From the IMG/VR virus record IMGVR_UViG_3300030103_003585, positions 1 through 22,676 of that record: DNA of 22,676 nucleotides; one strand, written 5' to 3'. The notes below the pieces were generated by a model, which was not told the origin of the DNA, made no database searches, and saw only the letters and a program-made list of their open reading frames with translations. The translations under genes were made by a program, and so were the position numbers. Numbering within the stretch: the stretch's first letter is position 1; the number at the start of each line of letters is the position of its first letter. Below, one piece after another: positions 14,102 to 17,799 of the stretch. The stretch is from a virus.

Positions 14102-14653
14102 ATGACCGTTAACTACAGAAGAACAGCACTAGATAGAGACACTACGTTTTATATTCCAAAAGTAGAATGTTTTGCTTGCTATGACTCGGGCATTGTTTCT
14201 AATGGCGATAAGCTTGTAAACCAATTCATTCCAGATTATGACCGAGATCAAAAAGGCCGACCAAATGGTGGACAAGATTTAGCCATTATCTGTCATTGTA
14301 AAGCTGCATATGGCGATAGCCAAAGTGATAATGAAAGAGAAAGAGTTGGATTCAGAGATAGTTATGGCAACATAAGAACCGCAGATTCTATAAGAGGAGA
14401 GCCACAACCCCTTGGCTTTTCTCTTGAAAAAGAAAAAATACGACAGATACATACTCAAAGAAAAGATGCTTGGCAAAAAGGTGCTAAAGATATAAACGAA
14501 ATAAGACAAAAAATTGCTAAAGGAGAAAAATACGAAACCCCTTACTACATACAAGTTGTAAAGGAAGAGTTAACCAAAGTAGGCGATATGTTTTCTTTTC
14601 CTTCAGAAAAAGCTATCGTTAAATCAATGAAAAAATCTAATGACCAAAATTAA
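14102..14653 (+). CDS. Hypothetical 183-residue protein with Cys-rich N-terminal half
   Basis: The N-terminal half carries CFACYDSG and later ICHCKAAYG, two CxxC/CxC pairs that could form one zinc site, as in small DnaJ-like or replication-associated fingers. The C-terminal half is charged and helical (LEKEKIRQIHTQRKDAWQKG, IRQKIAKGEKYETPYYIQVV). It starts 7 bp after the initiator and overlaps the ParB-like gene by 14 bp. A replication-complex accessory is suggested by position and fingers; the family is not known to me. Confidence 0.65.
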   Translation: MTVNYRRTALDRDTTFYIPKVECFACYDSGIVSNGDKLVNQFIPDYDRDQKGRPNGGQDLAIICHCKAAYGDSQSDNERERVGFRDSYGNIRTADSIRGEPQPLGFSLEKEKIRQIHTQRKDAWQKGAKDINEIRQKIAKGEKYETPYYIQVVKEELTKVGDMFSFPSEKAIVKSMKKSNDQN

Positions 14654-15143
14654 CGACCTTAAACCAGACCACAAGAACGCAAGAAAAAGAACAGATCGTT
14701 CTGCTTCTTTGATACAAGAATCATTAGAAAGATATGGTGCAGCAAGATCAATAGTAATTGATGAAGATGGTCGTGTACTTGCTGGCAACGGAACTATAGA
14801 AGGTGCGAAAGCTGCTGGTCTAGAGAATGTAAGGGTTATTGAATCAGATGGCAAAGAGATAATTGCAATAAGACGCACTGGCCTTACAGAAGATCAGAAA
14901 GTTGGTCTTGCTTTAGCTGACAACAGATCATCTGACTTGTCTGATTGGGACGCTTCAATGCTTCATCATTTATCAATGGAACATGAGATTGACCCTTGGT
15001 TTGAACCAGAGGACTTAACAGAACTTATGGACGATAGAACAGATGCAGAAGCACCTGAAGATTTTAAAGATGTTGACGAAGATTTAGAAACAGAACATAG
15101 ATGTCCAAGTTGTGGTTATGAATGGAGTGGAAAAGCAAAATAA
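14640..15143 (+). CDS. ParB/Srx-fold protein with C-terminal zinc ribbon
   Basis: Residues 1-~115 match the ParB N-terminal (ParB-like nuclease / sulfiredoxin) fold found in phages: INDLKPDHKNARKRTD, then VIDEDGRVLAGNGTIEGAKA AGL, and TEDQKVGLALADNRSSDLSDWD. An acidic linker (DDRTDAEAPEDFKDVDEDLE) leads to CPSCGYEWSG at the end, half of a zinc ribbon or a rubredoxin-like knuckle. In other phages this domain is often fused to or beside DNA methyltransferases. It is the first gene of the proposed modification cluster and overlaps the next by 32 bp. Confidence 0.8.
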   Translation: MTKINDLKPDHKNARKRTDRSASLIQESLERYGAARSIVIDEDGRVLAGNGTIEGAKAAGLENVRVIESDGKEIIAIRRTGLTEDQKVGLALADNRSSDLSDWDASMLHHLSMEHEIDPWFEPEDLTELMDDRTDAEAPEDFKDVDEDLETEHRCPSCGYEWSGKAK

Positions 15144-15942
15144 ATTAAGAAATATTTTTGAACATTTCTTGCAAAATCTTCCAGATGGTTTTGCTGTAGC
15201 GACATCTGGCGGTATTTCTTCTGCTGCTTTATTAGCATCTGCAGTTGCTGTAAACAAAAAACCAAGGGTTGTATCTTTTACATTTGATGATTTTGAATCA
15301 ACAGATTTTACTTATGCCAAAGCAATGGCACATCATTTCAACGTGTCTTTTTATCCTGTGTATTTACCATCTGATAAAAATAAAATTAATAATTCAGTTT
15401 CTACACTTATTCATAAGTTTAAATTAAAGAAAAAGGCACGCATTGAATGTTCTTTTCCTTTTCTATATGTGGCAGAAACTTGCAAAGCGCTTGGTATCAC
15501 TACACTTGTGACAGGTCTTTGTGATGATGGCCATTTTGGTTTATCTAAAAAAGCAATGATACATTACAAGCATACGCAAGAAAAGTTTGACCAATTTAGA
15601 CATGATTATTTTTCAGACCCAGATGCTGCTGGTCGTAAAGGCATACATAAAATCTGCCAAGATTTTGATGTTGATATTTTTAATCCATATTGCCACCCAA
15701 GTGTATTTAAATTGTTTATCGGCAAATCTTGGGATGAATTAAACAAGCCAAAACAAAAATACGCTATTCGTAAATGTTATCCAGAGCTTGAACAATTTAA
15801 ACTACCAAACCACACTAATTTACAACTTGGCGATAGCAAAATTGCACAAAGAGTAGGAAATGCGGTAATTTCTAAGTATAAACCTAATGCAAAGTCACCA
15901 GTTGGTATCTATAACAGAATCGCAAAAGGCATCTATGCCTAA
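15112..15942 (+). CDS. Stand-alone asparagine-synthetase-like PP-loop ATPase
   Basis: The 276-residue protein resembles the synthetase half of asparagine synthetase B without the N-terminal glutaminase domain. The PP-loop is SGGISSAALL at residues 32-41. The second motif TGLCDDGHFG corresponds to TGxGxDExFxG. The C-terminal KYAIRKCYPELEQF recalls the AsnB/beta-lactam-synthetase end. Such enzymes adenylate a carboxylate and form an amide. The usual Asp of SGGxDS is Ser here, so its chemistry may differ. Possible starts are the ATGs at 15112 and 15118. It lies between the ParB-like gene (32-bp overlap) and the DNA methyltransferase (ATGCCTAA overlap), which points to the DNA-modification cluster. 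Confidence 0.75.
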   Translation: MVMNGVEKQNKLRNIFEHFLQNLPDGFAVATSGGISSAALLASAVAVNKKPRVVSFTFDDFESTDFTYAKAMAHHFNVSFYPVYLPSDKNKINNSVSTLIHKFKLKKKARIECSFPFLYVAETCKALGITTLVTGLCDDGHFGLSKKAMIHYKHTQEKFDQFRHDYFSDPDAAGRKGIHKICQDFDVDIFNPYCHPSVFKLFIGKSWDELNKPKQKYAIRKCYPELEQFKLPNHTNLQLGDSKIAQRVGNAVISKYKPNAKSPVGIYNRIAKGIYA

Positions 15943-16993
15943 ACCACTTTACAAAATACCTTCTATGGTAGAAATAGAAGCAACTCCGTGGAATGGGTTT
16001 AAAGTTGCTTCAACATTCTCTGGCTGTGGTGGCTCTTGTCTTGGTTATCGTATTGCTGGCTATAAAGTTGTATATGCAAACGAATTTATAGAATCTGCAA
16101 GACAAACTTACAAAGCTAACCATCCAAACAGCTTTCTTGACCCTAGGGACATAAGAAAAATAAATGCAGATGATATTTTAGAAAAGATAAACTTAAAAAA
16201 AGGCGAACTTGATTTATTTGATGGCAGCCCTCCTTGCGCTGCTTTTTCCATTGGCGGTAAAAGGGAAGCAGGGTGGGGTAAAGAAAAAAAGTACAGCGAA
16301 ACAACCCAAAGGGTAGATGATTTGTTTTTTGAATATGCTCGGATACTAAATGGTCTACAACCTAAAGTTTTTGTGGCAGAAAATGTATCGGGTCTTGTAC
16401 AAGGTACTGCAAAAGGTTATTTCAAACGCATACTTACAAAATTAAGGGATTGTGGCTACAACGTAAAATGCAAAGTCCTAGATGCTCAATGGCTTGGTGT
16501 GCCTCAGATGAGAAAGAGAACAATTTTTGTAGGTGTAAGAAACGATTTAAACATAGAACCAGCACACCCAAAGCCAATACCATATCAATATTCTGTTGGC
16601 GAAGCACTTATTGATGTAGAGCAGTCAAACGAATATAAGACCATACCAGAACATACAGAAACTTATAAATTATGGAAACTTACAAAACCCGGCGATCAAT
16701 TTTATAAAGCAGCCATAAAACTTACTGGTCAAAACAAATTCTTTTCCCATGTAAAGCAATCTCCTTTTCGTGTGGCCAATACTGTTGTGCAAGGAACTAT
16801 GGATAAATACCATTGGACAGAACCTCGGTTGTTCACAATTCAAGAATTAAAACGAATCAGCAGTTTTCCTGACGATTTTATTTTGCATGGTAACCTATCA
16901 CAAAAGTGGGAAAGAGTCGGTAGAGCTGTACCACCACTAATGATGGCCAAAGTTGCTGAAACTGTAGCCAAAGAAATATTAGAAAAATGTTAA
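15935..16993 (+). CDS. C5-cytosine DNA methyltransferase with Arg in motif X
   Basis: All core motifs of the family are visible (numbering from the ATG at 15935): FSGCGG 28-33 (SAM binding), GSPPC with catalytic Cys101, AENV 148-151, QMRKR 191-195, RLFTIQELKRISSFPDDF near 298-315, and motif X GRAVPP 329-334. The target-recognition region, ~200-295, is short, so the recognition site is probably small. In motif X the near-invariant Asn (GNxVPP) is Arg330 (AGA at 16922). I use the ATG at 15935 because it overlaps the upstream stop; the frame is open to 15887. It flips a cytosine and transfers a group to C5. The Arg suggests a cofactor other than SAM, perhaps carboxy-SAM. Confidence 0.9.
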   Translation: MPKPLYKIPSMVEIEATPWNGFKVASTFSGCGGSCLGYRIAGYKVVYANEFIESARQTYKANHPNSFLDPRDIRKINADDILEKINLKKGELDLFDGSPPCAAFSIGGKREAGWGKEKKYSETTQRVDDLFFEYARILNGLQPKVFVAENVSGLVQGTAKGYFKRILTKLRDCGYNVKCKVLDAQWLGVPQMRKRTIFVGVRNDLNIEPAHPKPIPYQYSVGEALIDVEQSNEYKTIPEHTETYKLWKLTKPGDQFYKAAIKLTGQNKFFSHVKQSPFRVANTVVQGTMDKYHWTEPRLFTIQELKRISSFPDDFILHGNLSQKWERVGRAVPPLMMAKVAETVAKEILEKC

Positions 16994-17145
16994 AAACAAA
17001 ATTTCCTTCAAATCCTTACGTTGGTATGATTTTTTATTGTGTATATAGCAAAAAAACTTATGAATTTTTACAAGACTTTGATGGCTACGATAAATGGTAT
17101 GACATAACTAATGAAAAACTTAATCCACTTTCTGATTTGTTTTAA
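16987..17145 (+). CDS. Hypothetical 52-residue protein inside the modification cluster
   Basis: ATG at 16987 overlaps the methyltransferase stop by 7 bp. The TAA at 17143-17145 abuts the ATG of the CmoA-like gene. The product (MLKTKFPSNPYVGMIFYCVY, then TYEFLQDFDGYDKWYDITNE) is rich in Tyr and Phe. It is compact, without a signal peptide or a clear membrane segment. Precise packing between two genes of one pathway supports translation. It could be a subunit or specificity partner; no homology recognised. Confidence 0.65.
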   Translation: MLKTKFPSNPYVGMIFYCVYSKKTYEFLQDFDGYDKWYDITNEKLNPLSDLF

Positions 17146-17799
17146 ATGGATATACCTACAAACTGGACTTTTGAAACCTCTGGTGTTGCACAAGGTTTTG
17201 ATCGTCATGTTAGAGAACAGTTGCCTTGGTATGACTTAGCAACAAACGCAATACTTCATGTGGCAAGACACTACATTCCAGAAAATGGTCTTGTTTACGA
17301 TTTTGGTGCATCTACTGGCAACATTGGTAGAGCATTAGAACCAATACTGACCAAAAGAAAAGCACACTTAATAGGCATAGAACCTAGTGAAGAAATGATA
17401 AAACTTTATAACGCACCGGGCGAAATCGTATGCAGCAAAGCAGAAACATTTATTGCAAAAGATTTTGATTTGTCTGTTTTATTTTTATGTTTAATGTTTA
17501 TTCCACCAGCCAAAAGATTTAATCTTATGCTAAGACTAAGGGAGAAATGTAAACCCGGAGGGGCAATTATTGTCTTTGACAAGTTAGAACCAATTGGTGG
17601 CTACGCTTCAACTGTTTTCTATCGTCTTACACTTGCTGGCAAAAAAGCATCTGGTACAAATTCAGATGAGATAATTGAAAAAGAATTATCGTTGTCAGGT
17701 GTACAAAGACCTATTACAGAAGATCAACTTGCTGGCGATTTCATAAATTGGTTTAAATTTGGCGATTTCTCAGGATACCTTATAGAAAAACCAACATAA
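17146..17799 (+). CDS. Class I methyltransferase-fold protein related to CmoA (carboxy-SAM synthase)
   Basis: A 217-residue Rossmann protein. It contains NWTFETSGVAQGFDRHV at the start, VYDFGASTGNIG 50-61 (motif I), GIEPSEEMI with Glu79 (motif II), and KPGGAIIVFDK 136-146. KKASGTNSDEIIEKELSL follows at 166-183. The order and spacing follow E. coli CmoA as I remember it (DWTFDERVAEVF, VYDLGCSLG, NPGGALVLSEK, KRANGYSELEISQKR). CmoA converts SAM and prephenate to carboxy-SAM. In my ungapped alignment the CmoA Arg199, which contacts the carboxylate, falls on Glu180, so the product may differ. A plain SAM methyltransferase is the alternative. It sits 1 bp from the terminase and two genes after the DNA methyltransferase. 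Confidence 0.65.
   Translation: MDIPTNWTFETSGVAQGFDRHVREQLPWYDLATNAILHVARHYIPENGLVYDFGASTGNIGRALEPILTKRKAHLIGIEPSEEMIKLYNAPGEIVCSKAETFIAKDFDLSVLFLCLMFIPPAKRFNLMLRLREKCKPGGAIIVFDKLEPIGGYASTVFYRLTLAGKKASGTNSDEIIEKELSLSGVQRPITEDQLAGDFINWFKFGDFSGYLIEKPT

Follow-up and report, generated by a model that had tools for sequence, protein, structure and literature searches.

A viral gene cassette with a predicted carboxy-SAM-dependent cytosine C5-carboxymethyltransferase, marked by a motif X arginine, outside the cyanophages

The closest described counterpart of the locus analysed here is the CmoA-CmoX-CmoY system of Synechococcus phage S-B43, which was published in December 2025 (Nat Commun 2025; PMC12783734). 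In this system, SpCmoA makes carboxy-SAM (Cx-SAM) from SAM and prephenate, 5-carboxymethylcytosine (5cxmC) is the CmoA-dependent product of SpCmoX in vitro as well as in E. coli, and 5-glycylcarboxymethylcytosine is the end product of the three enzymes (PMC12783734). Wild-type SpCmoX accepts Cx-SAM and refuses SAM. In its complex with Cx-SAM (PDB entry 8YF3), Arg350, which occupies the position of Asn304 in HhaI, touches the carboxymethyl group and its carboxylate, and the R350N variant uses neither SAM nor Cx-SAM (PMC12783734). Similarly, the engineered enzyme M.MpeI N374K gains the use of carboxy-SAM from one basic residue in place of the motif X Asn (PMC12783734). Thus, the idea of an arginine that reads the carboxylate of the cofactor is already published and not new. 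Carboxymethylation of the wobble uridine in bacterial tRNA by CmoA and CmoB likewise employs CmoA-made carboxy-SAM and basic residues that read its carboxylate; however, CmoB acts on 5-hydroxyuridine in tRNA and is no homolog of the C5-cytosine methyltransferases.

Here, we analysed a stretch of 22,676 nucleotides, in the following referred to as the window, which originates from a 38,218-base virus record in IMG/VR. The record encodes a terminase, a Mu F-like protein and a DUF4055-domain protein, which we take to be the portal, and is therefore assigned to a tailed phage. The window carries a cassette in the order parB-cmoY-cmoX-cmoA, in which the published three-enzyme set is complete. Its features are as follows:

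14640 to 15143, plus strand: ParB-like (ParBc) gene, first of the cassette (phrog_620 ParB-like, E=2.7e-29)
15112 to 15942, plus strand: cmoY-like gene, encoding a predicted amide ligase that is ATP-dependent and belongs to the asparagine-synthase type (PF00733, E=6e-6; homology to S-B43 CmoY)
15205 to 15222, plus strand: ATP loop of the CmoY homolog, SGGISS where SGGxDS is usual, with Ser in place of Asp (26 representative CmoY homologs aligned)
15935 to 16993, plus strand: cmoX, 352 aa, C5-cytosine methyltransferase homolog and predicted DNA cytosine C5-carboxymethyltransferase
16229 to 16237, plus strand: catalytic motif PPC, CmoX residues 99-101, with Cys101 corresponding to SpCmoX Cys98 (alignment)
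16379 to 16387, plus strand: ENV motif, CmoX residues 149-151 (invariant in the homolog alignment)
16505 to 16519, plus strand: QxRxR motif, here QMRKR, CmoX residues 191-195 (homolog alignment)
16919 to 16936, plus strand: motif X segment GRAVPP, CmoX residues 329-334 (sequence; aligns with VGR350MVPP of SpCmoX)
16987 to 17145, plus strand: open frame of 52 aa between cmoX and cmoA (sequence)
17146 to 17799, plus strand: cmoA-like gene, 217 aa, predicted phage carboxy-SAM synthase (TIGR00740, PDB and fold matches)

As in the S-B43 system, CmoA, CmoX and CmoY are all present and adjacent, the Arg at the carboxylate position and the Cx-SAM contacts are conserved, and the ligase is devoid of a glutaminase domain. 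The ParB-like gene is of the kind reported for many contigs carrying CmoX (PMC12783734), and almost all relatives with sufficient flanking sequence have it upstream of cmoX; its product in the window has no Pfam match. The two systems differ in gene order, which is cmoA-cmoY-cmoX in S-B43, in the SGGISS loop of the ligase, and in sequence: CmoX is ~40% identical to SpCmoX, the CmoY homolog shares 34% identity with S-B43 CmoY over 224 aa, and the CmoA proteins are only distantly alike. As compared to M.MpeI N374K, which is engineered, carries Lys, is CG-specific and has no CmoA of its own, the enzyme in the window is natural, carries Arg and is accompanied by a dedicated CmoA. When the 38,218-base record was searched for further C5-methyltransferases, none besides cmoX was found, and no RNA features were detected in the window at Rfam thresholds. 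The 52-aa frame overlaps the stop of cmoX and varies among close relatives, being present in L004 and missing in L002.

The gene cmoX is numbered here from the ATG at 15935; a longer alternative start lies in frame at 15887. Its product matches the whole PF00145 domain (E=7.4e-62). In textbook C5-cytosine methyltransferases, motif X reads GNxVPP, with Asn. The original prediction, made from the sequence of the window, held that GRAVPP at residues 329-334 takes its place in an otherwise intact enzyme, and translation of positions 16919-16936 on the plus strand (GGT AGA GCT GTA CCA CCA) indeed yields G329, R330, A331, V332, P333 and P334, with the AGA codon of Arg330 at 16922-16924. The remaining catalytic motifs were likewise found intact: SPPC lies at residues 98-101, the ENV motif follows at 149-151, and in the QxRxR motif R193 and R195 are invariant and Q191 nearly so.

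Searches with CmoX led to the S-B43 enzyme by sequence as well as by fold. The best PDB match by sequence is 8YF3 (E=3.4e-75), which is also the top Foldseek match (E=1.8e-32) of an AlphaFold model with a mean pLDDT of 91. In the alignment, R330 coincides with SpCmoX Arg350, and the further residues compared, that is the named cofactor contacts and the nucleophile, are identical as well (SpCmoX/window: F25/F28, E47/E50, F48/F51, D69/D72, C98/C101), whereas a Met-type Flavobacterium enzyme used as control departs from SpCmoX at F48, D69 and R350. Arg330 was placed relative to the cofactor by homology to 8YF3. On this basis, the proposal that a basic residue in motif X neutralises a carboxylate on the cofactor gains support, as R330 corresponds to the residue that SpCmoX positions at the Cx-SAM carboxylate; the presence of a CmoA-like gene 152 bases downstream and the co-occurrence of Arg with CmoA among relatives, described below, add to it. 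Equal use of SAM by relatives with Arg, which had been named as an outcome speaking against the proposal, is contradicted by SpCmoX, which uses only Cx-SAM.

For the analysis of this co-occurrence, relatives of CmoX were fetched by similarity to the methyltransferase protein of the window alone. Arg occupies the motif X position in 111 of 111 sequences covering this column, the window included, and CmoA adjoins cmoX in the fetched relatives whenever the contig reaches that far. The nearest relatives lacking Arg, which were fetched with the Flavobacterium phage enzyme and have Met at this position, served as a control. When sequences were clustered at 90% identity, CmoA was found alongside in all 46 Arg clusters as compared to none of the 41 evaluable Met clusters, which form one clade in the tree and are therefore not independent events. 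The cmoX gene is under purifying selection, with dN/dS values of 0.03-0.12 relative to its relatives. A neutral change within a decayed gene was considered and rejected, as Arg is invariant and the gene under such selection; together with the confident model, these data bear out that Arg330 is a clean codon outside any decayed region. The notion that Arg replaces Asn holds up in part: the Arg is real, but the nearest sister group without it has Met (GMSVPP) rather than the textbook Asn. With Met in this sister clade, Asn is at most a candidate for the ancestral state, and by the tree Arg may have arisen once or more than once.

In principle, the enzyme could be an ordinary SAM-dependent C5-methyltransferase that merely tolerates Arg, since its fold and all of its motifs are common to methylating enzymes and the Met-type sister group illustrates that the motif X position varies in the absence of CmoA. 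However, Arg never varies among the relatives and goes along with CmoA, the Arg-bearing homolog SpCmoX refuses SAM (PMC12783734), and the window enzyme shares further Cx-SAM contact residues with SpCmoX, which together make this explanation extremely unlikely. We are thus highly confident that the gene encodes a phage CmoX, that is a predicted Cx-SAM-dependent DNA cytosine C5-carboxymethyltransferase, whose catalytic steps we infer from the S-B43 enzymes. Most likely, the gene set modifies cytosines of the virus DNA with carboxymethyl, an acidic group, instead of methyl.

The presumed source of the cofactor is the CmoA-like protein. It matches the CmoA family TIGR00740 (E=1.5e-14) at 54.3 bits as compared to a curated cut-off of 193.3, and is therefore not filed as an equivalog of bacterial CmoA. 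Its best PDB matches by sequence are YecO and E. coli CmoA, and the predicted fold (mean pLDDT 85) is closest in Foldseek to Haemophilus YecO and E. coli CmoA, with TM scores of ~0.84-0.87; in addition, it matches phrog_4752 (tRNA methyltransferase; E=1.5e-44). The SAM-pocket residues Y39, D62 and G64 are conserved. Arg199 of E. coli CmoA binds the carboxylate of Cx-SAM (PMC3663124), and the alignment reveals Glu at this position in the window as well as in S-B43 CmoA. Taken on its own, the missing Arg199, along with the missed equivalog cut-off, would be compatible with a protein whose product is a derivative of SAM different from carboxy-SAM, in which case Arg330 would read a different acidic group. 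Against this stands that SpCmoA also has Glu there and yet yields Cx-SAM from SAM and prephenate (PMC12783734), that the fold of the window protein is closest to CmoA, and that the cofactor contacts of CmoX match those of SpCmoX; we therefore regard another derivative as very unlikely. As the active S-B43 enzyme also carries Glu in place of Arg199, phage CmoA must hold the carboxylate in a different way.

The CmoY homolog comprises 276 aa from its likely start (ATG at 15118), lacks a glutaminase domain and overlaps cmoX. We refer to it as a homolog because its SGGxDS ATP loop is not intact. Among the aligned homologs, Asp is also lost in L029 (SSGISS) and in Staphylococcus phage F1 (SGGNGS), and the remaining ones carry SGGxDS or a near variant with Asp. 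The L029 ligase is 77% identical to the window allele, and both have Ser at this position, which may indicate that a true CmoX is accompanied here by a CmoY homolog that is inactive or unused, leaving free 5-carboxymethylcytosine as the final base. Lineages without the ligase fit this explanation: in the close relatives L022-L027 it is absent between parB and cmoX, and in Moraxella phage Mcat8, of which 17 kb were examined, CmoX and CmoA are encoded but no ligase was detected. However, the window allele evolves under purifying selection (dN/dS 0.12-0.15), which is unexpected for a dead gene, and many lineages keep the ligase; we consider an idle ligase unlikely, albeit worth keeping in mind. 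Purifying selection was likewise observed for cmoA.

Comparison of the cassette with those of the close relatives L017, L015, L010 and L004 revealed that the middle of the ligase gene shares 52-72% nucleotide identity, whereas the flanks are mostly 80-97% identical. A ligase that is mosaic, or missing as in L022-L027, among otherwise near-identical cassettes suggests exchange of the amine-joining step. It is conceivable, and we put this forward tentatively, that the ligase is a specificity cassette exchanged within a single phage lineage: the window allele, whose ATP loop and active-site region are altered, might join an amine other than glycine and would therefore generate an undescribed DNA base.

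The following pathway may be envisaged, in which the catalytic steps are modelled on the S-B43 enzymes and the support at this locus comes from sequence, homology, conservation of contact residues, fold match and genomic linkage. The CmoA-like enzyme would convert SAM and prephenate to carboxy-SAM. CmoX would flip out the target cytosine, Cys101 would attack C6, and the carboxymethyl group would be moved onto C5, with Arg330 forming a salt bridge to the carboxylate of Cx-SAM and thereby disfavouring SAM. The CmoY homolog might then activate the new carboxylate with ATP and join an amine to it. The resulting amide-modified cytosine could shield the phage DNA against host nucleases.

Taken together, the cassette is a new example of the recently described system in a non-cyanophage lineage. 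From a single residue in the raw sequence, both the change of cofactor and an entire DNA-modification pathway are predicted correctly; what is gained is a further member with good support and a clean association of Arg with CmoA. The possible novelty lies in the final base made by the ligase of the window. Swapping or loss of the ligase step, with the carboxymethylation step kept, suggests an origin for the chemical diversity of phage DNA.

Several relatives extend this picture. In the IMG/VR contigs L232 (L232:1716-4053), L233, L235 and L251 (L251:3417-5631), two tandem CmoX-type enzymes follow CmoY, both carrying the motif X Arg; they possibly represent two recognition specificities, and the main text of PMC12783734 makes no mention of tandem CmoX genes. 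In the Staphylococcus phages vB-SscS-F1 (L121:6497-7504) and SPbeta-like (L122:4690-5688), HhaI-like methyltransferases adjoin a CmoA homolog and lack the motif X Arg (VVGGVIN), the former phage also encoding a ligase. These enzymes either bind the carboxylate in another way or have a different role, and a search requiring Arg would miss enzymes of this type. Convenient culturable test systems for the cassette are provided by two isolated phages, Pseudomonas phage PaBG (L117:5192-9155; parB-like gene, cmoX, cmoA and ligase) and Mcat8 (L114:7499-9699; parB-like gene, cmoX and cmoA). Finally, positions 7-1545 of the window encode a long protein of ~20-residue repeats (NTTGxxNTAxGxxAL) with an end domain resembling a tail-fibre chaperone, and a similar repeat stretch is located towards the opposite end of the record (L261 14352-14963).
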